Shown: positions 2,614 to 29,649 of the stretch, piece by piece
Numbering within the stretch: the stretch's first letter is position 1
How the letters are laid out: the number at the start of each line of letters is the position of its first letter
NCBI RefSeq assembly: GCF_003945325.1
Contig: NZ_AP019307.1
Location: 620,001 to 684,000, forward strand
Length of the DNA: 64,000 nucleotides
From: Nocardioides baekrokdamisoli
Lineage (GTDB): Bacteria; Actinomycetota; Actinomycetes; Propionibacteriales; Nocardioidaceae
Direction of reading: 5' to 3'
Made by a program: the position numbers and the translations under genes
Notes under the pieces: generated by a model
What the model was told of the DNA's origin: nothing
Databases searched by the model: none
What the model saw: the letters and a program-made list of their open reading frames with translations, nothing else

Positions 2614-3105
2614 TCAGGCTTGCGGAGCGTTCCTGGCCATCACCAGATGGCCATCGTCGGTGGCGCGCAACAACTGGGTGAACCCGGCTTTGGCCAGCAC
2701 CCTCAGCGACGCGGCATTCGTCGGCTCGACTGACGCGCGGACGCGTACGTCCTCCGCCTCTGCGGTGTCGACCAACGCCTTGACGGCCTCCGTCGCGAAC
2801 CCCCAGCCCCAGGCCTCGCGAACCAGCCCGAACCCGATCTCTACTTCCGATACGCCGTCGACGTCTTCTGGCGGCCCGAAGAACCCGATCGAGCCGAGCA
2901 CAGTCACCCCGCGGACGATCGACCGCGGGCCCCACGGATCGCCTTCCCGCCACATCGACGCCGCGTCGACGTCGTCCTTGCGCGGGAAGTCGGCGTGCCA
3001 GCCCGGCTGGCGCAGCGGAGATTGACCCCGAATCGCGCGTACGTCTGCCGCATTCCACAGTGGGAGCGTCAGACGCTCGGTGACGATGACGTCATCGATG
3101 CTCAT
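2614..3105 (-). CDS. GNAT family N-acetyltransferase (RimJ/RimL type)
   Basis: A 163-residue GNAT enzyme expected to transfer acetyl from acetyl-CoA to an amine, perhaps a protein N-terminus or small molecule. TERLTLPLWNAAD opens the fold, followed by VEIGFGLVREAWGWGFATEA (the beta4 and acetyl-CoA loop region) and VEPTNAASLRVLAKAGF (the N-A-S-x-R-V-x-x-K-x-G-F motif). The ATG at 3105 overlaps the stop of the gene before it (ATGA), making it the last gene of the pyrR-pyrB-pyrC transcription unit. Substrate cannot be told. It may have been added to the operon; acetyltransferases are not a normal pyr component. Confidence 0.85.
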   Translation of the reverse strand: MSIDDVIVTERLTLPLWNAADVRAIRGQSPLRQPGWHADFPRKDDVDAASMWREGDPWGPRSIVRGVTVLGSIGFFGPPEDVDGVSEVEIGFGLVREAWGWGFATEAVKALVDTAEAEDVRVRASVEPTNAASLRVLAKAGFTQLLRATDDGHLVMARNAPQA

Positions 3106-3521
3106 TCGTCGACCTCGACCAGTGGGGGACCCCAGGTCTTCGCTGCTTCGAGGATGACGCTGAGGTCTTGTGAGGTGAACTCGACCGACGCGTTCGACCA
3201 GACCACCCGCACCCCTCGGCCGAATTCGTGCCGGACGAGCTCGATCGACGCCGCCGACGCAACCGGGACCTCGGCTCGGGGGTCACCCAGACGGTATCTG
3301 TTGACGGTCCAGACGCGGGCACCTTCCAGCTCAATCAGCTCCGCCCAAGGGTCAGTCCAGCCCGTCAGTGAACCTCCGACAACAACCGAGTGCCCCTTAC
3401 GAAGTTTCTTGACCAGGCGCCGCTGACGCCAGCTCAGCGTGGCATCAGTGACGACCGAGTCCACGAACAGCCCGAGGATGAAGTTGATCAGACCACCGAC
3501 GAGGTTTCCCAGAATGTCCAC
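3102..3521 (-). CDS. Small membrane-anchored protein downstream of pyrC
   Basis: A 139-residue protein that I do not recognise. The GTG at 3521 begins one base after the pyrC stop (3523-3525), and the stop overlaps the next ATG. An N-terminal hydrophobic stretch (LVGGLINFILGLFVDSVV, residues about 6-23) is followed by a basic patch (WRQRRLVKKLRKG) and a soluble, beta-rich region. Many actinobacteria carry a small membrane protein between pyrC and carA, and the position matches, but this one has only one clear membrane segment. Translational coupling to pyrC suggests it is made together with the pyrimidine enzymes; its role is unknown. Confidence 0.7.
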   Translation of the reverse strand: MDILGNLVGGLINFILGLFVDSVVTDATLSWRQRRLVKKLRKGHSVVVGGSLTGWTDPWAELIELEGARVWTVNRYRLGDPRAEVPVASAASIELVRHEFGRGVRVVWSNASVEFTSQDLSVILEAAKTWGPPLVEVDE

Positions 3522-3522
3522 G

Positions 3523-4812
3523 TCAGCCGAGGTACGTCTGCGTGCCGCGCAGGTACGTCGAATGGATCGCACCGTGCAACGTGCGTCCGTGCCACGGGTT
3601 GTTGCGCGACAGCGACAGGGACAGGTCACGATCGACGGTCCACACGGCGGTCGGATCGACCAGCGTGAAGTTGGCCGGCTCGCCGACCGCGATCGGGCGC
3701 CCGTGCCCGGCCAGTCCTGCGATCCCGGCCGGGTTGGTCGACATCACTCGAGCGACCCCGTCCCACCCGAGACGCTCGCCCAACACGGTCCAGACGACAG
3801 GCAGTGCGGTCTCCAGACCGATCATGCCGAACGCGGCGTCGACGAACGCGTGCTCCTTGTCGTGGCGGGCGTGCGGGGCGTGGTCGGTGGCGACCGCATC
3901 GATCGTGCCGTCGGCGAGGGCTTCGCGAAGCGCCTCGACGTCCTCCTGGGGACGCAGTGGCGGGTTGACCTTGAACGTCGGGTCGTACGAAGTGAGCAGA
4001 TCGGTGGTCAGCAGGAGGTGGTGCGGGGTCACCTCGGCGGTGACGCTGATCCCCTGGGCCTTGGCCCAGCGGATGACCTCCACGGACCCGGCCGTCGAGA
4101 CGTGTGCGACATGGACCCGGGACCCGGTGTGACGCGCGAGCATGACGTCGCGCGCGACGATCACCTCTTCAGCGACCGACGGCCACCCGGGCAGGCCGAG
4201 CCGTCCGGAGAGTTCACCCTCGTGGCAGCACGAGGCGTGCGGGGCCAACGACGGGTCCTGGCTGTGCTGGGAGATGACTCCCCCGAAGGCCTTCACATAC
4301 TCCAGGGCACGGCGCATCACGCGTGCGTCGCCGACACATTTGCCGTCGTCGGAGAAGACGCGTACGCCCGCGCGTGAGCGCGCCATCAGGCCGAGCTCGG
4401 CCAGCTCGGCGCCCTCGAGACCGCGAGTGACCGCGCCCACCGGCTGGACATCGACAAGACCCACCGCTCGACCGAGGTCGTGGACCCGTTCGGCGGCTTC
4501 AGCCGTGTCGGTGACCGGGCTGGTGTTGGCCATGGCGAGCACCGCGGTGAATCCCCCGGCTGCCGCGGCAGCGGAGCCCGTGGCGATCGTCTCGGCATCC
4601 TCACGACCCGGCTCCCGCAGGTGGGTGTGCAGGTCGACGAAGCCAGGCAGCAGCACCAGGCCGTCAGCGTCCACCGTGGTCTCGGCACCTGCCTCCGACG
4701 CTGCGCGACCGACAGAGGTGATCAAGCCATCGGTGACGAGGACGTCTGCGGTCTCTCCACCGAGGACCTTGGCACCCTTGATCAACAGCACGCCGTTGGT
4801 GGACGTTGTCAT
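3523..4812 (-). CDS. pyrC: Dihydroorotase
   Basis: Zinc-dependent dihydroorotase (class I, PyrC/multidomain type), closing N-carbamoyl-L-aspartate to dihydroorotate in the third step of pyrimidine synthesis. Of 429 residues, [16 protein letters not shown] carries the metal-binding His62 and His64, and [13 protein letters not shown] near residue 310 gives the catalytic Asp and substrate-loop His. [18 protein letters not shown] and the C-terminal [10 protein letters not shown] are family features. The ATG at 4812 overlaps the pyrB stop (ATGA). It belongs to the pyrR-led operon and so should fall under PyrR control. Confidence 0.97.
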
Positions 4813-8221: not shown

Positions 8222-8632
8222 TCAATCGAGGGAGGGGCGGTCCTTCTCGATCGCGCCGAGGACACCGTTCACGAACTGCGGCGACTCGTCCGTCGACAGC
8301 GCCTGGGACAGTTCCACAGCCTCGGAGATCGCGACGTGGGACGGAACATCCTCCGGGCCGGCGAGCAGCTCGAAGACGCCCAGACGCAGGACGTTGCGGT
8401 CCACCGCCGGCATCCGCTCCAGCGGCCAGTCGCGGCTGTACTCGGCGAGCAGTTCGTCGATACGGGTCGCATGAGCTGCGACCCCACGGACCAGGTCCGC
8501 CGTGTACGGGTTGGCCAGATCGCCAGCCGCGATCCGCTCATCCAGGAGATCGGTCGCCGCAATCCCCTGGGCCTCAGCGGCGAAGAGGATGTCGAGAGCT
8601 CGCTTGCGCGCCTTCGTACGGGCGGTGATCAC
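8222..8632 (-). CDS. nusB: Transcription antitermination factor NusB
   Basis: Helical RNA-binding protein that pairs with NusE (S10) on boxA RNA during rRNA transcription. The 136 residues include TKARKRALDILFAAEAQG at the N-terminus, MPAVDRNVLRLGVFELL and VAISEAVELSQALSTDESPQ, ending in FVNGVLGAIEKD. All are NusB hallmarks. The GTG at 8632 is 9 nt from the efp stop, so it is co-transcribed with efp, as is usual in actinobacteria. Confidence 0.96.
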   Translation of the reverse strand: MITARTKARKRALDILFAAEAQGIAATDLLDERIAAGDLANPYTADLVRGVAAHATRIDELLAEYSRDWPLERMPAVDRNVLRLGVFELLAGPEDVPSHVAISEAVELSQALSTDESPQFVNGVLGAIEKDRPSLD

Positions 8633-8641
8633 AGTGCTTGA

Positions 8642-9208
8642 TCAGCTCTTGACTCGGCTGAGGTACGAGCCACCGTCGCGGGTGTCGACCTTGATCTTCT
8701 CGCCGTTCTCGATGAACAGCGGCACCTGGATCTCCGCGCCCGTCTCGAGTGTCGCCGGCTTCGTACGGCCGGTCGCCGAGTCACCCATGACACCCGGCTC
8801 GGTGTAGCTGATCACGAGCTCGACCGAGGCCGGGAGCTCGACGTAGAGGACCCGACCGTTGTTCATCGCGATGATGACGTCGAGGTTCTCGAGCATGAAG
8901 TTGGCGGCGTCGCCGACCTGCTCAGGCGCGACCTCGAGCTGCTCGAACGTGCCGCCGTCCATGAAGACGTAGTTCTGGCCGTCGTTGTAGAGGTACTGCC
9001 AGGTGCGCTTGTCGACTGTCTCGACCTCGACCTTGGTGCCGGCGTTGAACGTCTTGTCGACGTTCTTGCCCGACTCGACGTTCTTCAGCTTCGTACGCAC
9101 GAACGCGGGGCCCTTGCCCGGCTTGACGTGCTGGAACTCCACGACCTGCCAGAGCTGGCCGTCGATGTTGAGGACCATGCCGTTCTTGAGGTCATTCGTG
9201 CTCGCCAT
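8642..9208 (-). CDS. efp: Translation elongation factor P
   Basis: Relieves ribosome stalling at polyproline stretches. It has 188 residues with three beta-barrel domains. The loop tip of domain I reads VKPGKGPAF, with Lys32 inside the palindromic PGKGP (30-34) typical of actinobacterial EF-P; that type has been reported to work without modification of the lysine. No epmA, epmB or other modification gene is nearby. The ATG at 9208 follows AGGAG. A TAGACT box at 9260-9255 may be the -10 of its promoter. Confidence 0.97.
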
Positions 9209-9329
9209 GTCGCGCCAGCTCCTGTTGTTGGAAGGTCGGGTGGATCAGCGCGCGAGTCTAGCCGTCGCGGGGTGCAAAAAAAGATTTCGGAAGCGCGTTG
9301 CGAACCGCCTGGGCGGTGACAAGTAGCGG

Positions 9330-9355
9330 GTGAAGGTGGCTCGAGCCACCTTCAC
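9330..9355. repeat. Perfect 26-bp palindrome in front of the sigma factor cassette
   Basis: GTGAAGGTGGCTC is followed directly by its exact reverse complement, with no spacer. It lies between the divergent efp and 9376 genes, 20 nt before the GTG at 9376. Two direct copies of GGAGTTTCA (9356-9364, 9365-9373) follow, the second supplying the Shine-Dalgarno. There is no T-run, so a terminator is unlikely. It may be an operator for a dimeric regulator or a strong hairpin in the mRNA leader. Confidence 0.75.
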
Positions 9356-9375
9356 GGAGTTTCAGGAGTTTCACC

Positions 9376-9642
9376 GTGGTTTCCCCTCTCAACATGAAAG
9401 TCGCCGCCGGTGCGGCAGCTCTCCTGGTGGGCATCATCGGCGGGGCGTACGTGGCTGGTGCTGCCAGTCCGCAGGCCCAGACTCCTGTGGTGAGTTGGAC
9501 GACGCCTTCTCGGGTGGCGTCGCCGAGCGCTCCTGCGATCCAGGTATACGTGCCGACGATCGCGCCCAGGGCAACGCTGCACAAGCCCGACCAACACCCG
9601 CCGGAGCACGCGAAGCACCATTCGCACGGCAATGGCGACTGA
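9376..9642 (+). CDS. Small exported or membrane-anchored protein, first gene of sigma cassette
   Basis: An 88-residue protein that I do not recognise. The GTG at 9376 has AGGAG 7 nt upstream; an internal ATG at 9394 is less well placed. A hydrophobic segment (VAAGAAALLVGIIGGAYVAG, about residues 9-28) could be a signal peptide or a single anchor. The rest is low-complexity, rich in Pro, Ser, Thr and Ala, and ends in a His-rich tail (HKPDQHPPEHAKHHSHGN). The His-rich tail could bind metal, which is speculation. It is followed after 31 bases by a membrane protein and then an ECF sigma factor, all on the plus strand. Confidence 0.65.
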   Translation: MVSPLNMKVAAGAAALLVGIIGGAYVAGAASPQAQTPVVSWTTPSRVASPSAPAIQVYVPTIAPRATLHKPDQHPPEHAKHHSHGNGD

Positions 9643-9673
9643 CTTCGGTCAGTGATCAATGGAGAATGACCCT

Positions 9674-10195
9674 GTGACTTCGACCAAGTTCAGCCCACTG
9701 CACCTGGAGGCGCCTCGGCTCGTTGCCGACGTCGCCCTCGGTGAGCATCTGGCTGCCCTTGCTCGGGCGTCCGCCCCGAGCGGCACTTCTCGGGTGCGCC
9801 GCTCGGGGTGGAGGGTTCCCCTCGCTGCCATCGCCACCATCGCCGCCTCCGGAAGCGTGGCGTACGCGGGTCAGGCAGCACTCCACAGCGAGATCCGACC
9901 GGCCGCTCCTGCGGTCCCGGTGGATGCCTCGATCACCGAGGTCGCGGCGACCGCGGCCGACGCCACCGCTGCTGCGGCTGGCGCAGCCGTCCGCAGTCCC
10001 CGGCCAACCCATCCTCACGGCAAGATCGTCGGCCGTGGTCACCCCAAGACCGGCAGGGCCCTCGGTCATCCGGGCAAGCACGACGCCGGCAACCACGGGG
10101 CCCACAACCCTGACAAGGCGACGCCCTCCGGGGCCGACGACGACATGTCCCCGTGGCGGAAATCCGCCGGAACGGCGGGTACATCGACCCCGTGA
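9674..10195 (+). CDS. Single-pass membrane protein paired with an ECF sigma factor (possible anti-sigma factor)
   Basis: A 173-residue protein without a recognised domain. The start is taken as GTG at 9674 because GGAGA lies 8 nt before it; an ATG at 9659 is also open. About 45 cytoplasmic residues, with a helical LVADVALGEHLAALARAS, are followed by one membrane segment (VPLAAIATIAASGSVAYAG, about 48-66) and an extracytoplasmic part rich in Ala, Pro, His and Gly. This layout and the overlap with the next gene (TGATG at 10193-10197) are those of a membrane anti-sigma factor, but no zinc-binding HxxxCxxC motif is present. The role is therefore inferred from context only. Confidence 0.65.
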   Translation: MTSTKFSPLHLEAPRLVADVALGEHLAALARASAPSGTSRVRRSGWRVPLAAIATIAASGSVAYAGQAALHSEIRPAAPAVPVDASITEVAATAADATAAAAGAAVRSPRPTHPHGKIVGRGHPKTGRALGHPGKHDAGNHGAHNPDKATPSGADDDMSPWRKSAGTAGTSTP

Positions 10196-10737
10196 TGAGA
10201 CCGGCGAAGGCTGACACCTCGACGGTTGCTCGAGCACGAGAGGGAGATCCAGACGCCTGGCGAGAGCTCTACGACGCTCATGCCGGGCGTCTGTTGCTGT
10301 GGCTGCGCAAGACGCCCCTCAGTGATCCGAGCCTCGATCACGAGGACCTCGCGATGGAATCCTGGACGCTGGCGGCGTCCAGGATTGCTGATTTCGACGA
10401 GGACGACGACGCCTTTCCGGCGTGGCTGTTCACCGTGGCACGCAACCATCTGATGAATGCCGTACGCAAGGCCGCCCGCCGGGCCACGTACGCCACCGCG
10501 GACCTCCCCGAGCAGATCGATCTGATCGATCACACGCTGAGGATCGAGCACGACGAACTCGTACGCGAGGCGATCGCGCAGCTGCCCGCACGTGAAGGTG
10601 AGGTGATCGCCTGCATCGACGTCGTCGACCTCGACGTGGCCACAACTGCCGCGATCCTCGGGATCAGCCGGGCGAACGTACGCATGGCCCGGTCGCGCGG
10701 GCTGGCGCGCCTCCGAAAGGCTGGCTGGAGGGTGTGA
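10195..10737 (+). CDS. ECF-type RNA polymerase sigma factor
   Basis: A 180-residue sigma-70 family factor with only regions 2 and 4. Region 2 spans about residues 21-97 (WRELYDAHAGRLLLWLRK, then FPAWLFTVARNHLMNAVRK). Region 4 spans about 122-175 (AIAQLPAREGEVIACIDVVD, then TAAILGISRANVRMARSRGL). In region 2.2 the usual acidic pair appears as HEDLAMESW. The start is ATG at 10195 or GTG at 10192, overlapping the upstream stop. It is last in a three-gene plus-strand cassette, set where other actinobacteria have a peptidase gene between efp and aro. Sigma-70 class is certain; regulon unknown. Confidence 0.88.
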   Translation: MRPAKADTSTVARAREGDPDAWRELYDAHAGRLLLWLRKTPLSDPSLDHEDLAMESWTLAASRIADFDEDDDAFPAWLFTVARNHLMNAVRKAARRATYATADLPEQIDLIDHTLRIEHDELVREAIAQLPAREGEVIACIDVVDLDVATTAAILGISRANVRMARSRGLARLRKAGWRV

Positions 10738-22496: not shown

Positions 22497-23003
22497 TTAT
22501 CCCCTTACGTCCCAGAAAGCCGGAATGTGATACGGCGCATTTGCAGTTCCCGATCCGACGACGCGCTCCTTGCACGTGGGCTGCAATTCCAGGTATTGCC
22601 AGGTGAACGACTCGCGGTCAGCACCGGCATGGAGCTGACCTCTGGTCCAGGTCGCCGGCACGGTCCAGGAGTCTCCGTACGTGATTCCCGCAGAAAGCGA
22701 CGCGGACACGGACACTCCCAGCGACTGGTGCGCGGAGAACAGAATCGCACTCTCATCGAAACTGATATCGCCCGAGACGGTGGCTGACACCGAGATCCCC
22801 GCCGAAATGGTGATCGACAAGGTGTGTCCGCCGGGAGCACTCACGTACGGAACCAGGTCTTTGTAATTGTGCGAGCCGTTCGCCGTCCCGTACGACTCTT
22901 CGGGGGCACAGCCCGCAAAAGCCGGCAATGCTGTGGGCCCAAGAGCAACAAGCCCTCCGGCACCCATGACGACCGCAGCCGTTTGAGCAAACATTTTCCG
23001 CAT
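22497..23003 (-). CDS. Secreted protein of unknown function
   Basis: A 168-residue exported protein that I do not recognise. The ATG at 23003 has GGAGG 5 nt upstream. A signal peptide (MRKMFAQTAAVVMGAGGLVA and on to LPAFAG) is probably cut after AFA. The mature part starts with GCAPEESYGTANGSHNY and continues in a Ser/Val/Thr-rich, alternating pattern (TLSITISAGISVSATVSGDI; VSVSASLSAGITYGDSW) suggestive of a beta-sandwich. Two or three Cys could form a disulfide. Base composition is lower in GC than the housekeeping genes. It is followed by the putative lipoprotein, so the two may work together outside the cell. Confidence 0.75.
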   Translation of the reverse strand: MRKMFAQTAAVVMGAGGLVALGPTALPAFAGCAPEESYGTANGSHNYKDLVPYVSAPGGHTLSITISAGISVSATVSGDISFDESAILFSAHQSLGVSVSASLSAGITYGDSWTVPATWTRGQLHAGADRESFTWQYLELQPTCKERVVGSGTANAPYHIPAFWDVRG

Positions 23004-23183
23004 TGAAGCCTCCACACTGTCAATTTGGCGTCTGAGCCCCGTCGATGCCCCGTTGGGATGCATTGTTCGTGACTATTTGTGACAGTGACGCTAACACTCA
23101 TGGAGACCTCGCGTCAGGGCTTATCAACTGAATATTGCCTAAACGTTTTGTGAGACGTCCTGTGGAGCGGAACAGGCTGCACC

Positions 23184-23765
23184 TCACACTAGGAACGTGA
23201 GAACCGCGGCCAGTACCAGAGCCGCCAGACTCAACCAAGGCGCCCTCGGGAAGATGGCAAACACGGGGCCCGGGTCCTCGCCCTTGGACTTCGCCTCGCT
23301 GACCGCCGAGCGCAGGTAGTCGACCGCGTACGCCACACCGCTCTCGACGTACTGGCGACCAGCCGGGCTCGCGACAAGGCCCCGCGCCACATCAGCGTCG
23401 CCGCGAGCCAGGCTGGACCGCTTGAAGCCGATAGCCGGCGACGTGTACCGCTTACGCCCGACCGTCAGTTCGAGATAGGACCGGACCCGTACGTTGTCGA
23501 CGGCCGCCGCCGGGATACGCAGATCTCGCAGACTGTTGGTCAAGACGATGGCATCGCCGTCGACGGCCACGTGAGGCCGGACGAGAACGACCCAAGCAAC
23601 CCAGGCGACACCCCACACCACCAGGCACGCGCGGGCACCTCCGACGGTCGGGCTGTCGACGAACAGGTACGCGCCGAGCGCAGCAGCAGCGGCGGCGCTG
23701 ATCCACCCGATGATTCGTGTTGCTGCCGCGCGTGCACGATCACCGCGAGGTGTGCGACCTCGCAC
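23184..23765 (-). CDS. PH-domain-like membrane protein
   Basis: A 193-residue protein with two N-terminal membrane helices (IIGWISAAAAAALGAYLFV; ACLVVWGVAWVAWVVLV), a soluble middle and a C-terminal hydrophobic segment (LSLAALVLAAVLTFL). The middle, VAVDGDAIVLTNSLRDLRIP and VRSYLELTVGRKRYTSPAIG, has the pattern of the small bacterial PH domains. Function unknown. The GTG at 23765 is 2 nt from the stop of the permease gene, so it is the last gene of the ABC importer operon, although proteins of this type are often independent of transporters. Confidence 0.75.
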   Translation of the reverse strand: MRGRTPRGDRARAAATRIIGWISAAAAAALGAYLFVDSPTVGGARACLVVWGVAWVAWVVLVRPHVAVDGDAIVLTNSLRDLRIPAAAVDNVRVRSYLELTVGRKRYTSPAIGFKRSSLARGDADVARGLVASPAGRQYVESGVAYAVDYLRSAVSEAKSKGEDPGPVFAIFPRAPWLSLAALVLAAVLTFLV

Positions 23766-23767
23766 GA

Positions 23768-24754
23768 TCAGTAGAGCCGCACGCGTGGATCGAGTACGGC
23801 GTACAAGAGGTCGACGAGGAAGTTCGCCACGACGACGAACACGCTGACCAGGACCAGGATGCCGACGATGACCGGTAGGTCCTGGTTGTTGATTGCGTTG
23901 ACCGATTCGTTGCCGAGGCCGGGCATGCCGTAGATCTTCTCGGTCACGATCGTCCCGCCAGCCAGCGTTGCCAGGTCGATACCGAACTGGGTCACGACAG
24001 GGGTCAACGCACTACGAAGGGCATGCCTGGTGATGACCCGGCGTTCCGGGATGCCCTTTGCTCGGGCGGTGCGGATGTAGTCCTCGCTGAGAACCTCGAG
24101 CATCGAACCACGGGTGAACCGGGTGTATGCGGCAGCTGTGATGAGGGCGAGCGTCATCCATGGAAGGAACAGGTGCCTACCCCACTGGAACAAGCCGTGA
24201 TCGCTACTGGTCGGGCCGGGCGCACCGAGCCACGGAGCGTACCCAGCTGCAGGGAACCACGGATGGTGCGCGACCGTCAGCTTGTAATACAGGAAGTACA
24301 GGAAGAGCGATCCGAGGACCAACGACGGCATCGAGTAGAAGACCAACGCCATCACGTTGAGCACGCGGTCGGTGATCGTACGCGGACGGATCGCGGAGAT
24401 GATACCGGATCCGACGCCGAGGATGAGCCAGATGATGGCGGCGCCGATGGCGATCGAGAAACTGACGGGTGCGTCGGCCTTGATGATCGAGACGACTGAC
24501 TGACCGTGGTAGTAGTCGTACCCCAAATCGCCGTGGAGCGCGCGCCAGATGAAGTGCCCGTACTGGTACCAGAGCGGCTTGTCCAGCCCGAGCCGGTGGT
24601 TGATCAAAGCGATCATGTCCGGCGTCGCCATCTTGCCTGCCATGGTGCGGCCAACGTCCGTCGGAGCTGCGAAGAACAACAAGAACGTCGTGACGGTAAC
24701 CAGGAACAGCACAAGGATCCCGGTCAGGGCCCGAACGAAGATGTAGCGAATCAC
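23768..24754 (-). CDS. Peptide-type ABC importer, permease subunit (DppB/OppB family)
   Basis: A 328-residue inner-membrane permease with six expected helices. The N-terminus (YIFVRALTGILVLFLVTVTT, then FFAAPTDVGRTMAG) and HRLGLDKPLWYQYGHFIWRA are typical of DppB. The EAA loop that docks on the ATPases reads EVLSEDYIRTARAKGIPERR. VTEKIYGMPGLGNESVNAI is conserved in the family. The GTG at 24754 overlaps the stop of the second permease gene. With 24751-27790 and the binding protein it forms a full importer for oligopeptides or similar solutes; the substrate is unknown. Confidence 0.94.
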   Translation of the reverse strand: MIRYIFVRALTGILVLFLVTVTTFLLFFAAPTDVGRTMAGKMATPDMIALINHRLGLDKPLWYQYGHFIWRALHGDLGYDYYHGQSVVSIIKADAPVSFSIAIGAAIIWLILGVGSGIISAIRPRTITDRVLNVMALVFYSMPSLVLGSLFLYFLYYKLTVAHHPWFPAAGYAPWLGAPGPTSSDHGLFQWGRHLFLPWMTLALITAAAYTRFTRGSMLEVLSEDYIRTARAKGIPERRVITRHALRSALTPVVTQFGIDLATLAGGTIVTEKIYGMPGLGNESVNAINNQDLPVIVGILVLVSVFVVVANFLVDLLYAVLDPRVRLY

Positions 24755-25698
24755 TTCTGGAGCAGCCTTTCGATCCGCGGGTCGAGTGCATCGCGGATGC
24801 CGTCACCGAGCAAGTTGAAGACCAACGTGGTGAGTACGAGGATCGCGCCGGGGAAGAACGCGGTCCACCAAGCCTGATAGAAGAGCCCCTGGTCGGATGC
24901 GTCGCTGATCATTCCGCCCCAATCCGCGGCTGGAACCGGTAGACCAAGCCCGAGATATGCCAGCGTCGCCTCGGACACAATGTTCACGGGCACCAACAGC
25001 GAGAAATAGATCAGGATCGGCATCACCAGGTTCGGGAGCAACTCCACGAACATGATCCTGTAGGTGCTTGCTCCGAGGGACCGCGCCGCTTCGACGAATT
25101 CGCGTTCGCGCAGCGACAGCACCTGGCCGCGGATGATGCGTGCCATCGTCGCCCAACTGAAGAAGGCGAGCACCAGAACGATGATCGTCAGGCTCTGCCC
25201 GAAGATCGCGACCAGTGCGACAGCAGTCAGGACGAACGGCATGGCCAGCACCACGTCGAGAATGCGCGCGATTACCGTGTCGACGATGCCGCCGAGGTAC
25301 CCGGCAAGGAGACCCAGGACGACGCCGATCACTACGGCAAGGGCGGTTGAGAGCAGACCGATGCCCAACGAGACCTGACTACCGGAGATCATGCGCCCGA
25401 GAACATCGCGGCCAAGGGCGTCGGTGCCGAACCAGTGTGCTCCGCTCGGCCCGATCGGTAGGCCATTGGCGTCCGTGCCATTCGGGTCTTGGAAGTTCGG
25501 GCTCTGGCCGATCATGTCGTTGAGCAGTGGGGCGAAGATCGCCACCAGGATGATCAGCAACAGGATCGCACCAGAGATCAGCGCGACCTTGTCCTTGCGC
25601 AGGCGACGCCATGCCAGCTGCCAGGGGCCGCGGGCAACCACACCCGTGCTTGCTTTGAGTTGCACAGCCTCTTCGGGAGGCGCTGTGGAGGCGCTCAC
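24751..25698 (-). CDS. Peptide-type ABC importer, permease subunit (DppC/OppC family)
   Basis: A 315-residue partner permease. A cytoplasmic N-terminus leads to the first helix (ALISGAILLLIILVAIFAPL), followed by the DppC marker HWFGTDALGRDVLGRMISGS. The ATPase-docking EAA loop is EREFVEAARSLGASTYRIMF. The C-terminus FNLLGDGIRDALDPRI is also diagnostic. The GTG at 25698 overlaps the previous stop (GTGA). Periplasm-equivalent loops are normal in length. Confidence 0.94.
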   Translation of the reverse strand: MSASTAPPEEAVQLKASTGVVARGPWQLAWRRLRKDKVALISGAILLLIILVAIFAPLLNDMIGQSPNFQDPNGTDANGLPIGPSGAHWFGTDALGRDVLGRMISGSQVSLGIGLLSTALAVVIGVVLGLLAGYLGGIVDTVIARILDVVLAMPFVLTAVALVAIFGQSLTIIVLVLAFFSWATMARIIRGQVLSLREREFVEAARSLGASTYRIMFVELLPNLVMPILIYFSLLVPVNIVSEATLAYLGLGLPVPAADWGGMISDASDQGLFYQAWWTAFFPGAILVLTTLVFNLLGDGIRDALDPRIERLLQK

Positions 25699-26774
25699 AG
25701 GCCGACCTCCGATCCAGTGGACACGACGTCAGCGGTCACGATGCTGTCCTTGATCTGCGGGGTGAAACTTGCCAGCTCGTCGTCCTTCCTCAGCGGATGG
25801 AGGCAGTCGACGAAATGACGCTCGTATCCCTCCCCGGAAAGCAGGTCGGAAGTCGGGACGATCGTCGTGCAGTCCATCTCCGCCTTCGGGCACCGTGGGT
25901 GGAAACGGCAGCCCGAGGGAGGCGCGATCGGCGAAGGAAGGTCGCCCGCAAGCACGATCCGCTCTCGCCGATCGGCCGCGGTCGGGTCCGCGGCCGGCTT
26001 GGCCGACAGGAGTGCCCTCGTGTACGGGTGGGCGCTGGCGCTGAAGATGGTTTCGGACGGACCGGTCTCGATCACTCGCCCGAGGTACATCACAGCGATG
26101 CGATCGCTGATGTGCTGGACGACCGAGAGGTCGTGGCTGATGAACAGGTAGGTGAGCCCGAACTCCTTCTGCAGGTCCTGAAGAAGGTTGATCACCTGCG
26201 CCTGGATCGATACGTCCAGCGCAGAGACCGGCTCGTCACAGACGATCAGTTTGGGCTTCAGTGCCAGAGCGCGCGCGATCCCGATTCGCTGCCTCTGCCC
26301 GCCGGAGAAGTCGGCCGGGTACCGGTTGAAGTGCTCAGGATTGAGTCCCACGACCTCCATGAGTTCCTGGACCTTCGCCTTGCGAGCAGGACCGTCACCC
26401 ATCTTGTGGATGGCCAGTGCGTCACCGATGATCGACCCGACCCGCCGCTTGGGGTTCAACGAGCCGTACGGGTCCTGGAAGATCATCTGCATCTCGCGAC
26501 GCAGGGGTTGCATGTCCTTGCGCGACGTCTTCGTGATGTCGCGGCCGTCGAAGGTGAGCGAGCCGCTGTCGATGTCGTACAACTTCGTGAGGCATCGGGC
26601 GAGCGACGACTTGCCACATCCGCTCTCCCCCACCAGGCCGAGCGTCTCGCCTCGACGGATCTCGAGGCTGACGTCATCGACGGCGGTGAGTTTGACCTTG
26701 CCTCCGAGCAGGCCACGGCTGCCAACGGTGAACCGCTTCGTCACCCCAGTTGCTGAGAGGAGTACGTCGCTCAT
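25695..26774 (-). CDS. Peptide-type ABC importer, ATPase (DppF/OppF family)
   Basis: A 359-residue nucleotide-binding subunit. Walker A GLVGESGCGKSSLARCL, signature FSGGQRQRIGIARALA, Walker B KLIVCDEPVSALDVSIQ and the H-loop LFISHDLSVVQH are complete. NPKRRVGSIIGDAL and the C-terminal oligopeptide-type extension with CRFHPRCPKAEMDC (a Cys cluster) place it in the OppF group. The ATG at 26774 overlaps the stop of the other ATPase gene (ATGA). It pairs with 26771-27790 to power transport. Confidence 0.95.
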   Translation of the reverse strand: MSDVLLSATGVTKRFTVGSRGLLGGKVKLTAVDDVSLEIRRGETLGLVGESGCGKSSLARCLTKLYDIDSGSLTFDGRDITKTSRKDMQPLRREMQMIFQDPYGSLNPKRRVGSIIGDALAIHKMGDGPARKAKVQELMEVVGLNPEHFNRYPADFSGGQRQRIGIARALALKPKLIVCDEPVSALDVSIQAQVINLLQDLQKEFGLTYLFISHDLSVVQHISDRIAVMYLGRVIETGPSETIFSASAHPYTRALLSAKPAADPTAADRRERIVLAGDLPSPIAPPSGCRFHPRCPKAEMDCTTIVPTSDLLSGEGYERHFVDCLHPLRKDDELASFTPQIKDSIVTADVVSTGSEVGL

Positions 26775-27790
26775 CGCGCAGCCTCGGCTCCCAGACGGCG
26801 CTGGCGAAGTGCCTCGCGCTCTTCTGTGGACGGTGCGAGGAAGCAGGCCGACAGGTGTAGCTCGCTACGGCTTACGGGACCCAACAGTGGAACTTCCTTG
26901 TCACAGCGATCGAATGCGTAGGGACACCTCGGCTGGAACACGCAGCCAGGTGGCAGATTGATGAGGCTCGGCGGGACGCCCTTCACGGGGCGCAGCGGCT
27001 CACCGCGTTTCACTCGGCTCGGCATCGAGTCGAGCAGACCTTCGGTGTACGGGTGGTGCGGCGCGGCGAAGAGCTCGTTGCGTTGGGCGCGTTCGACGAT
27101 CGTGCCGGCATACATCACGGCCACCTCGTCGGCTACGTCAGCGATCACGCCGAGGTCGTGAGTGATCAGAATGATGGCGGTGCCGAATTCGTCTTGCACC
27201 TTGCGCATCAACTCGAGGACCTGCGCCTGAACGGTCACGTCGAGAGCCGTCGTGGGCTCGTCTGCGATGAGCAGCGCCGGGTCGAGCGCCATCGCCATGG
27301 CGATCATCACGCGCTGACGCATACCGCCGGAGAACTGGTGCGGAAAATCATCCACGCGCTGAGAAGGAAACGGGATGCCGACCATGCCGAGCAGGTCGAT
27401 CGCCCGTTGGCGCGCCTGCTTCTTGGTGATCTTCGTGTCGTGCCCGCGAATCATCTCGATGATCTGCCAGCCGACGCGATACGACGGGTGTAACGACGTC
27501 AACGGATCCTGGAAGATCATGCCGATCTTGTTGCCAAGAACTGCACGTCGCTGGGACGGGGTCGCCGTGATCAGGTCCACGCCATCGAAGATGGCGGAAC
27601 CCGACACGGTTGCCCCCCGGGTGAGCCCGGCCAGGGTTTGCGTCGAAACGCTCTTCCCTGAGCCGGACTCACCGACGATGCCGAGGGTCTTGCCCCGCTC
27701 GACTTCAAAGGAGATGCCTCGTACGGCTCTTACGACGCCGTCATCGGTGTTGAACGAGACATGCAGGTCTTTGACCTCTAACAGGGCCAC
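26771..27790 (-). CDS. Peptide-type ABC importer, ATPase (DppD/OppD family)
   Basis: A 339-residue nucleotide-binding subunit. VEVKDLHVSFNTDDGVVRA-type opening (actual start MALLEVKDLHVSF), Walker A GIVGESGSGKSVSTQTLAGL, IFQDPLTSLHPSYRVG (Q-loop), signature FSGGMRQRVMIAMAMA, Walker B LLIADEPTTALDVTVQ and H-loop ILITHDLGVIADV are all present. The oligopeptide C-terminal extension has CVFQPRCPYAFDRC. The start is GTG at 27790 with GAGGA upstream, 36 nt after the binding-protein stop. It is the first transport gene after the binding protein. Confidence 0.95.
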   Translation of the reverse strand: MALLEVKDLHVSFNTDDGVVRAVRGISFEVERGKTLGIVGESGSGKSVSTQTLAGLTRGATVSGSAIFDGVDLITATPSQRRAVLGNKIGMIFQDPLTSLHPSYRVGWQIIEMIRGHDTKITKKQARQRAIDLLGMVGIPFPSQRVDDFPHQFSGGMRQRVMIAMAMALDPALLIADEPTTALDVTVQAQVLELMRKVQDEFGTAIILITHDLGVIADVADEVAVMYAGTIVERAQRNELFAAPHHPYTEGLLDSMPSRVKRGEPLRPVKGVPPSLINLPPGCVFQPRCPYAFDRCDKEVPLLGPVSRSELHLSACFLAPSTEEREALRQRRLGAEAAR

Positions 27791-27826: not shown

Positions 27827-29611
27827 CTACTTGAGCGCGGCGATCAGGTCGCTGTTCGCCTTGCCGACGTTGTACGCCCAGAGGTCGAACTGCTGCGAGC
27901 CGAGGATCTCCGCCGGAAGGATGTGGCTGAGCGGAATGTTCAGTTCCGGACCGCCAAGTACCTTGATCAGTGCATCACGGCTCAGAGCCTCCGACAGTGC
28001 CTGGCGAACAGCAGCCTTGGCCATCGCACCACCGTTGTTCGGCGAAGCCGTGTTGAACACCACGTACGGGTTGTTCGACGACGACGGCGTGATGATCAGG
28101 TTGGGGTCGTTCGACGCCTTCAGACTCGGAATCGTCGTAGCGGGCGGGAAGGTGTCCCACTCCATGTCGGCGTTGGAACTGCCGGTCTGGAGTTGCTGCT
28201 GGATAGCAGCCTGGTCACCGGACTCGTCCACGATCACCTTGGTGAAGTTCTGCTTGCGGATCGGGTCGTCGGCCTGCTTCCACAGTGGGTTCGGCACGAA
28301 CACGATCGACTTGGTCGGCACATAAGACTGGATGGCGTACGGGCCGTCGGAGATCGTGTGCTGTGCGAGATCGTTGCCACCAGGCAGGTAGTTCAGGTAC
28401 TCGACCGGTACCGGAGCGCTGATCGCCGAAAGGCCGGCGAGCATCGACACGAAGTATGACGCCGGCTGCGTGAGGTGGTAGACCACCGTCGTCGCGTTGG
28501 GCGCCGTCACACCAGACAACTCATTGTTGTTGATCGCCGTCTTGAGCGAGGCGACCGTCGGCGTCTTCCCCGCATCAGTAGCGAACTTGGCGCAGAACGC
28601 CGAGTAGCCCTCGATCAGTCCCGAAAAATCGGACTGCCCAGTGAACGGCTGAACCGGGTTACACGACCGCTTGACACCGAGCACGACGTCCTGAGCTGTC
28701 ACGGCGCGCGCCGGCGACGTGTTCCACATCACGCCGGGGCGCAGGTGGATCGTGATGGTCTTGCCGTCAGCGCTGATACCGCCATTGGCTTGAGTCGGGA
28801 TCTCAGTGGCGAGGTCCGCCGCTGCCTTTGTGGTCTGGCCCTGGATCGCCGGGTACGTGAACAGCTGCCGGGAATAGAAGCGCATCGCCTCGTAGCCCGT
28901 GCTGTAGTACGTCACACTCGGATCCATGTAGTCGACGTCGCCGACGCCGAGCATGTGCAGAGTCGAGGCATCCGCACCCGTCTTCGTGACATTGAGCGGG
29001 TCGATCTGCTGAAGAGACGGAATCGCGATGGCGTTTCCGAGGTTCTTCGAGTGGTAGTTAGCCGTCTGCGGGTCCGTGATCGGGTAGATCGCGGCATCCT
29101 GCATGACCTGACGGTCTGCCTTCGCCCAGTCGGCTTGCGCAGTCGCCGGGTCAGTGGCCGCCGCAGCATCCTTGATGAGTTGGTTGGTGGTGGCGCTGTT
29201 GTAAAGGCCGAAGTTGCTGCCGCCGTTCCACGGGAACGACTGCTCCCCGGAGAACAACGGAAGGAAGAACGAAGCCGCACCGTCGCCATACCAGTCCGGA
29301 CCCCAACCTGCGATCGCGAGGTCGAACTGCCCAGCCTTGGCGGCCGTTTTGGACTGGAGGTACTTGGTGTAGAAGTCTGCATTCGATGCGGGGAGTCCCT
29401 TGACGGTCACACCCGCGTTGGTGAGCTCCTGCTGGATCACCTGGAAGGCCTTGGTGCTGCCAACCGACTTGTTGCGGTACAGGATCGTCACTGTCAGGCC
29501 CGTGGACTTGATGTTGGCGGTACTGCCGCCACTGCTGCTGCCGCACGCCGTCAGTGTGATAGCGCTCGCCGTGCTGGCGGCGATGGCGAGGAATTTCCTG
29601 CCGAGTTTCAC
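27827..29611 (-). CDS. ABC importer substrate-binding lipoprotein, family 5, circularly permuted
   Basis: Binding subunit of the importer encoded just downstream. GTG at 29611 (GGGAGG 5 nt upstream) opens a lipoprotein signal, lipobox LTAC, Cys23; 594 residues, a normal total length. The order of the fold is rotated. Residues about 36-208 (GLTVTILYRNKS, FDLAIAGWGPDWYG, AIYPITDPQTANYH) match the segment that normally ends a DppA/OppA-type protein. Residues about 217-594 (TLHMLGVGDVDYMDPS, TITIHLRPGVMWN, VRQALSEALSRDALI, ending SDLIAALK) match the segment that normally begins it and leads into the first block. The junction is near coordinate 28980. No internal stop or frameshift is seen. A working permuted protein, or fusion and deletion between tandem copies, are possible origins. 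Confidence 0.88.
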   Translation of the reverse strand: MKLGRKFLAIAASTASAITLTACGSSSGGSTANIKSTGLTVTILYRNKSVGSTKAFQVIQQELTNAGVTVKGLPASNADFYTKYLQSKTAAKAGQFDLAIAGWGPDWYGDGAASFFLPLFSGEQSFPWNGGSNFGLYNSATTNQLIKDAAAATDPATAQADWAKADRQVMQDAAIYPITDPQTANYHSKNLGNAIAIPSLQQIDPLNVTKTGADASTLHMLGVGDVDYMDPSVTYYSTGYEAMRFYSRQLFTYPAIQGQTTKAAADLATEIPTQANGGISADGKTITIHLRPGVMWNTSPARAVTAQDVVLGVKRSCNPVQPFTGQSDFSGLIEGYSAFCAKFATDAGKTPTVASLKTAINNNELSGVTAPNATTVVYHLTQPASYFVSMLAGLSAISAPVPVEYLNYLPGGNDLAQHTISDGPYAIQSYVPTKSIVFVPNPLWKQADDPIRKQNFTKVIVDESGDQAAIQQQLQTGSSNADMEWDTFPPATTIPSLKASNDPNLIITPSSSNNPYVVFNTASPNNGGAMAKAAVRQALSEALSRDALIKVLGGPELNIPLSHILPAEILGSQQFDLWAYNVGKANSDLIAALK

Positions 29612-29649
29612 GTCTGCCTCCCTATGCATCTGGGAGCGCCCCACAGTGG

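Follow-up and report, generated by a model that had tools for sequence, protein, structure and literature searches.

A circularly permuted family 5 substrate-binding protein at the head of an Opp-type operon of Nocardioides baekrokdamisoli

In a stretch of 64,000 nucleotides from Nocardioides baekrokdamisoli (contig NZ_AP019307.1, positions 620,001 to 684,000; this whole stretch is called the window, and positions are counted from its first letter), we analyzed a gene at 27827..29611 of the minus strand, which encodes a lipoprotein of 594 amino acids belonging to family 5 of the substrate-binding proteins (SBPs). Our results support the identification of this product as a naturally circularly permuted SBP_bac_5 protein, encoded in an intact operon. 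Its two parts are nearly complete, their order is exchanged, the old chain ends are joined and the new ones lie inside the old chain, which are the features that define such permutants. On the grounds of sequence comparisons and modelling, it very probably works as the lipid-anchored substrate-binding protein of an ATP-binding cassette (ABC) importer of the oligopeptide/dipeptide type, with a chain that was circularly permuted once and an anchor placed on the other lobe.

Exchanged order of the two blocks

A single family, SBP_bac_5 (PF00496), was assigned to the protein by Pfam, with 153.4 bits versus the curated cut-off of 32.4 and in two stretches, the better of which pairs residues 278-587 with profile positions 11-271 of 368. 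When the genome was searched with the profile, positions 11-273 matched G000 at 647845-648780 (E 7e-36) and positions 287-362 at 649252-649509 (E 6e-8). Both pieces are on the minus strand and the latter lies upstream of the former; therefore, the tail piece comes first. Alignment to PF00496, proposed as a check in the preliminary description of this DNA, thus yielded two pieces in reversed order and no single collinear match, and the protein is classed as a permuted variant rather than an ordinary member of SBP_bac_5.

Comparison with PDB sequences gave the same arrangement, as residues 38-178 correspond to 358-482 of OppA 9rd1, and residues 215-578 to 32-365 of 2wok. Of the 210 collinear relatives, we used 60 to build a profile of 599 positions and held out the other 150. 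A reversed two-piece match to it was obtained for all 12 permuted proteins known to us from the homologue searches described below, and a single piece for each of the 150 held-out collinear proteins. In the window protein, residues 36-208 matched positions 419-590 and residues 212-592 positions 41-416, so that the pieces cover nearly the whole mature protein and the cut falls at about profile position 417/419. In the structure alignment, residues 216-594 of the model correspond to residues 1-340 of the 507-residue chain of Escherichia coli DppA (1dpp), which places the new C-terminus at DppA residue 340. All these comparisons bear out the earlier claim of swapped head and tail blocks; that both align in full is nearly true, as all that is missing is the tails of the old ends and a short loop where the chain was cut. 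Collinear relatives show only about 63% query coverage, which means that homology tools display genes of this kind as partial matches.

The coordinates in the preliminary description were right, and the strand, which it left unstated, is the minus one: the gene runs from the GTG start at 29611 to the stop codon at 27827-27829, and plus-strand translation of 27827-29611 gives a product other than the permuted SBP. The reading frame stays open farther upstream (an open reading frame of 658 amino acids), and the choice of GTG 29611 as the start rests on the permuted relatives as well as on the lipobox and ribosome-binding site. A Shine-Dalgarno-like AGGGAGG (29617..29623, minus strand) stands 5 bases before the GTG, and a signal peptide with the lipobox LTAC and Cys23 occupies 29543..29611 of the same strand. 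Both were recognized by eye. All 12 permuted proteins have the Cys, in agreement with the lipoprotein signal reported previously. On the minus strand there follow the tail block, which normally ends the protein (28988..29506, residues 36-208), the junction TKTGADAS, where the old C-end meets the old N-end (28964..28987, residues 209-216), and the head block, which normally begins the mature protein (27830..28963, residues 217-594) and supplies the new C-terminus just before the cut loop. The aspS gene, named by eye, lies upstream.

At the site of the cut, collinear relatives read, for example, ...KAKSLLADAGYSDG-LTLKFLY.... Permuted proteins end there, for example, with ...KAKKDLAAALKKK (...KANSDLIAALK in the window protein), and after the lipid-bearing Cys and a tether of variable length they resume with ...LTVTILY or similar. 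Fusion of the old C-end (e.g. DPANVWLSPDMQGG) to the old N-end (..GGTLNMLGTGDVDYMDP) reads DPLNVTKTGADASTLHMLGVGDVDYMDP in the window protein. All 12 permuted proteins have a linker of 8 residues, which begins with TKTG in nine of them. The previous remark that chain ends in this family are not simply adjacent needs qualifying: since the join takes 8 residues in every permuted protein and is modelled with confidence, the old ends are probably close enough.

Operon context, predicted fold and function

The permuted gene heads an Opp operon of the order A-D-F-C-B, all on the minus strand, in which a gap of 36 bases to OppD is followed by short overlaps. The downstream genes encode OppD-type (26771..27790) and OppF-type (25695..26774) ATPases, each with ABC_tran and oligo_HPY domains and told apart as D and F by position, as well as an OppC-type permease (24751..25698; BPD_transp_1 and OppC_N) and an OppB-type permease (23768..24754; BPD_transp_1 and BPD_transp_1_N). 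Two oligo_HPY ATPases together with two permeases characterize an importer operon of the Opp/Dpp type, and the operon is intact, as had been claimed.

Compared with its counterpart in Nocardioides nematodiphilus, the SBP gene differs by 21, 15 and 42% at codon positions 1, 2 and 3, respectively, with 73% amino-acid identity, while the partners are 82% (OppD), 78% (OppF), 74% (OppC) and 78% (OppB) identical. The permuted gene is thus constrained at the codon level like its operon partners. No other match to PF00496 at E <= 0.001 was found in the single-contig genome of 2,965,302 bases (98.7% complete), and therefore the permuted SBP appears to be the sole family-5 receptor available to the importer. 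As a separate observation, this 2.97 Mb genome with its single SBP_bac_5 gene is smaller than the 36 other genomes listed for the genus (3.2-6.3 Mb).

The residue expected to hold the peptide is also retained. Asp106, in the tail block, is shared by all 12 permuted proteins and aligns with Asp419 of OppA chain 9rd1 (residue counted along the alignment), which we take to be equivalent to D436 of DppA. D436 of E. coli DppA is reported to pair with the amino group of the dipeptide (PMC12136057).

Provided with 11 permuted rows and 104 unpaired block fragments of collinear relatives, AlphaFold2 returned one confident fold (predicted local distance difference test, pLDDT, 92.9; predicted template modelling score, pTM, 0.89), and the chain is predicted to fold into the usual two-lobed shape of family 5. 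Whole-chain TM-scores (template modelling scores) from Foldseek were low, e.g. 0.47 by query length for 2wop, as is to be expected of a sequential aligner, which can use just one block.

In OppA, both chain ends belong to domain I, and the cut point of the permutant presumably falls in domain III. The old ends, joined by the linker, would both lie in lobe I and the new ends in an open loop of lobe II, so that no extra crossing between the lobes would be needed. Capture of the peptide, suggested by the conserved Asp, the partner of the peptide amino group in OppA and DppA, would then be followed by closure, docking on OppB/OppC and handover of the cargo as usual. The main physical change would be a membrane anchor leaving from lobe II instead of lobe I.

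Several points weigh against the proposal of a once-rotated, working receptor. With the 12 permuted rows alone, the AlphaFold2 prediction was poor (pLDDT 55.3, pTM 0.43); a single normal two-lobe fold was thus predicted with the collinear fragments and not with the permuted rows by themselves. Because the 104 fragments were unpaired, the packing of block on block in the confident model rests largely on the network's knowledge of the fold. By sequential aligners, only residues 191 or 216 to 594 could be aligned with 2wok and DppA. As to the history of the gene, the loci available, the sole place where a duplication intermediate was sought, contained none, and the origin of the signal peptide is not readable from the sequence.

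The poor first prediction could also be taken to mean that the protein is a relic, either non-functional or re-purposed, which has lost binding or delivery and survives, for instance, as a sensor, chaperone or decoy lipoprotein. We consider this improbable, as the first place ahead of D-F-C-B has been conserved, codon constraint resembles that of the partners, the peptide-anchoring Asp is kept, and the genome holds no other SBP_bac_5 match to serve the importer.

A single rotation and its carriers

Twelve of the 222 homologues fetched, the window's own included, are permuted, with the same cut and junction; the other 210 are collinear and none was unreadable. This set came from a first search and two more, two of the searches contributing the best 120 rows each. 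Among the best 120 of 2398 matches, 12 clusters were permuted (again including the window's own) and 108 collinear; P0011 and P0016 are absent from the matches listed in the second search of 120 rows, and more diverged permuted proteins may rank below the best 120 of either search.

A tree of 61 rows, comprising the 12 permuted proteins, 40 of the then 172 collinear ones (132 were omitted because of size) and 9 collinear loci, united the permuted proteins in one clade (100/100) that requires one change, and 0 of 500 shuffles scored as low. The tree was midpoint-rooted, with collinear rows on both sides of the root, and long branches were flagged for P0009, P0010 and several outgroups. Trees of the head block and of the tail block each recovered the same single permuted clade, with a support of 99 in the Shimodaira-Hasegawa-like approximate likelihood ratio test (SH-aLRT). 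Mean identity to the 172 collinear relatives is 57.0% and 56.8% for the two blocks, and to the 11 other permuted proteins 67.4% and 66.9%. Given the matching block trees and equal distances, the permuted proteins likely descend from one rotated gene rather than from a patchwork.

Separate sources of the two blocks are conceivable in principle, and the collinear row nearest to that of the window differs between the head tree (P0012) and the tail tree (P0111), as might be expected if pieces of two different SBP genes had been fused. Nevertheless, such a chimera should hardly give one permuted clade in both trees with both blocks equally identical to collinear and to permuted relatives, and we regard it as quite improbable.

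Rotation of one gene most likely proceeded through a tandem duplication from which the outer parts were lost, the standard model for circular permutation. The SBP gene would have been duplicated in frame, and the head of the first copy, behind the signal peptide, and the tail of the second copy would have been lost, once, in an ancestor of the permuted clade, all named members of which belong to Nocardioides. In a different lineage, a metagenome-assembled genome of Acidimicrobiaceae (L057) carries two collinear copies of this SBP subfamily, at 2678-4297 and 8629-10251, about 4 kb apart and without fusion; duplication of this type is of the kind that could precede a permutation.

The 11 further permuted clusters, defined at 90% identity, come from several sources and are 53-72% identical to the window protein. 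Named carriers are N. montaniterrae (P0016, on a contig of 217,841 bases) and N. nematodiphilus (locus L031, whose protein reads as P0003, on a contig of 426,168 bases), the latter with the permuted SBP at the same locus as in the window. Block order was readable in 42 of 44 genome loci (only the head block was obtained for L060 and L072), and L031 was the one permuted. Of 215 Nocardioides genomes, six gave a match at 1e-10: in the window genome and in G118, which we take to be N. nematodiphilus, it crosses the junction, and in the other four it is split and in ordinary order. Among 391 genomes of the order, 42 matches were found at 1e-25, and only those of the same two genomes cross the junction; for the 40 without a match across it, this cut-off does not itself reveal the order. 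Search for the junction with P0011 gave 57 proteins, three of them matched across the junction (P0011, P0016 and P0008), and no new permuted protein; a scan of viral contigs with the window protein gave no relative.

Relatives with the same junction, the search for which had been suggested with the original observation, are therefore present in independent assemblies. One genome by itself would not exclude that the assembler swapped the order of a collinear gene, but a single assembly error could not produce independently assembled permutants of 53-72% identity, including those on the N. montaniterrae and N. nematodiphilus contigs, and this explanation is ruled out with virtual certainty.

Known permuted binding proteins and the aspS-rarA slot

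The protein shares with OppA and DppA (SBP_bac_5, Cluster C; the nearest solved structure is 2wok, the clavulanic acid OppA2) its blocks, predicted fold, lipoprotein signal, Opp operon and amino-binding Asp, and differs in a rotated chain that ends at the equivalent of DppA 340 and, as it would seem, in an anchor on the other lobe. Collinear orthologues in A-D-F-C-B operons (Kribbella, Phycicoccus, Jiangella and N. pinisoli) agree in operon order and are 54-59% identical in each block, but their chain order is ordinary.

Natural permutation has been described in another class. The glucose-binding protein TpMglB-2 (Tp0684) of Treponema pallidum is reported to be naturally permuted, as are its relatives in treponemes and Gram-positives ('Cluster Bc'), in which the N lobe is rearranged, a fourth hinge crossing occurs and the permuted part is poorly conserved; its authors considered anchoring as a possible reason for the permutation (PMC4990184). 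In both cases a tethered binding protein of an ABC importer is permuted in a set of relatives. Cluster Bc combines the sugar-binding fold of Cluster B with a permuted N lobe, whereas the window sequence is of family 5 (Cluster C), is presumably cut in lobe II, would need no extra crossing, and in each of its blocks remains about 57% identical to collinear relatives. It is tempting to suppose that the permutation was kept because the lipid anchor moves from lobe I to lobe II, which, with TpMglB-2, would make a second independent case of a membrane-tethered binding protein rewired in its tether site and hence in its docking on the permease; we put this forward as a tentative and rather doubtful idea.

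In an open-access library, with subscription papers mostly outside it, no paper contained both 'circular permut' and 'OppA', and the titles and beginnings of abstracts among the matches listed disclosed no permuted family-5 protein. The statement that no permuted member had been described thus holds for family 5 in that literature and not for binding proteins at large, TpMglB-2 having been published; natural permutation is known for binding proteins, and family 5 is new to it as far as was searched. With a large, well-studied family, a single ancestral rotation, collinear relatives at about 57% identity and no second SBP_bac_5 copy, the system is a clean natural experiment, in which the importance of chain order, folding path and anchor position for a binding protein can be tested directly.

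The operon occupies a slot between aspS and rarA. A scan of 31 genomes provided 29 other Nocardioides rarA loci, and in 27 of these an Opp gene adjoins rarA. Two of the loci, L133 and L134, read aspS - OppC - SBP - OppB - OppD - OppF - rarA, the SBP being collinear in L133 and represented by a head-block match only in L134. In the window genome and in N. nematodiphilus the slot holds the permuted SBP, D, F, C and B and a small membrane protein. This A-D-F-C-B order is of the Kribbella type, shown by 13 of the 14 loci (of 43) inspected besides L031; L068 is without D-F-C-B. Since the slot is the same and the order is of the Kribbella type, the Opp operon typical of the genus appears to have been replaced in place by a different one, which carries the permuted receptor. 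At 22497-23063 of the window lies a gene for a secreted-looking protein, without a Pfam match and with no match at E 1e-8 in L031. The small membrane-protein-like gene between OppB and rarA (23184-23765) has no Pfam match either, and a 56% identical copy is found in the same place in N. nematodiphilus.
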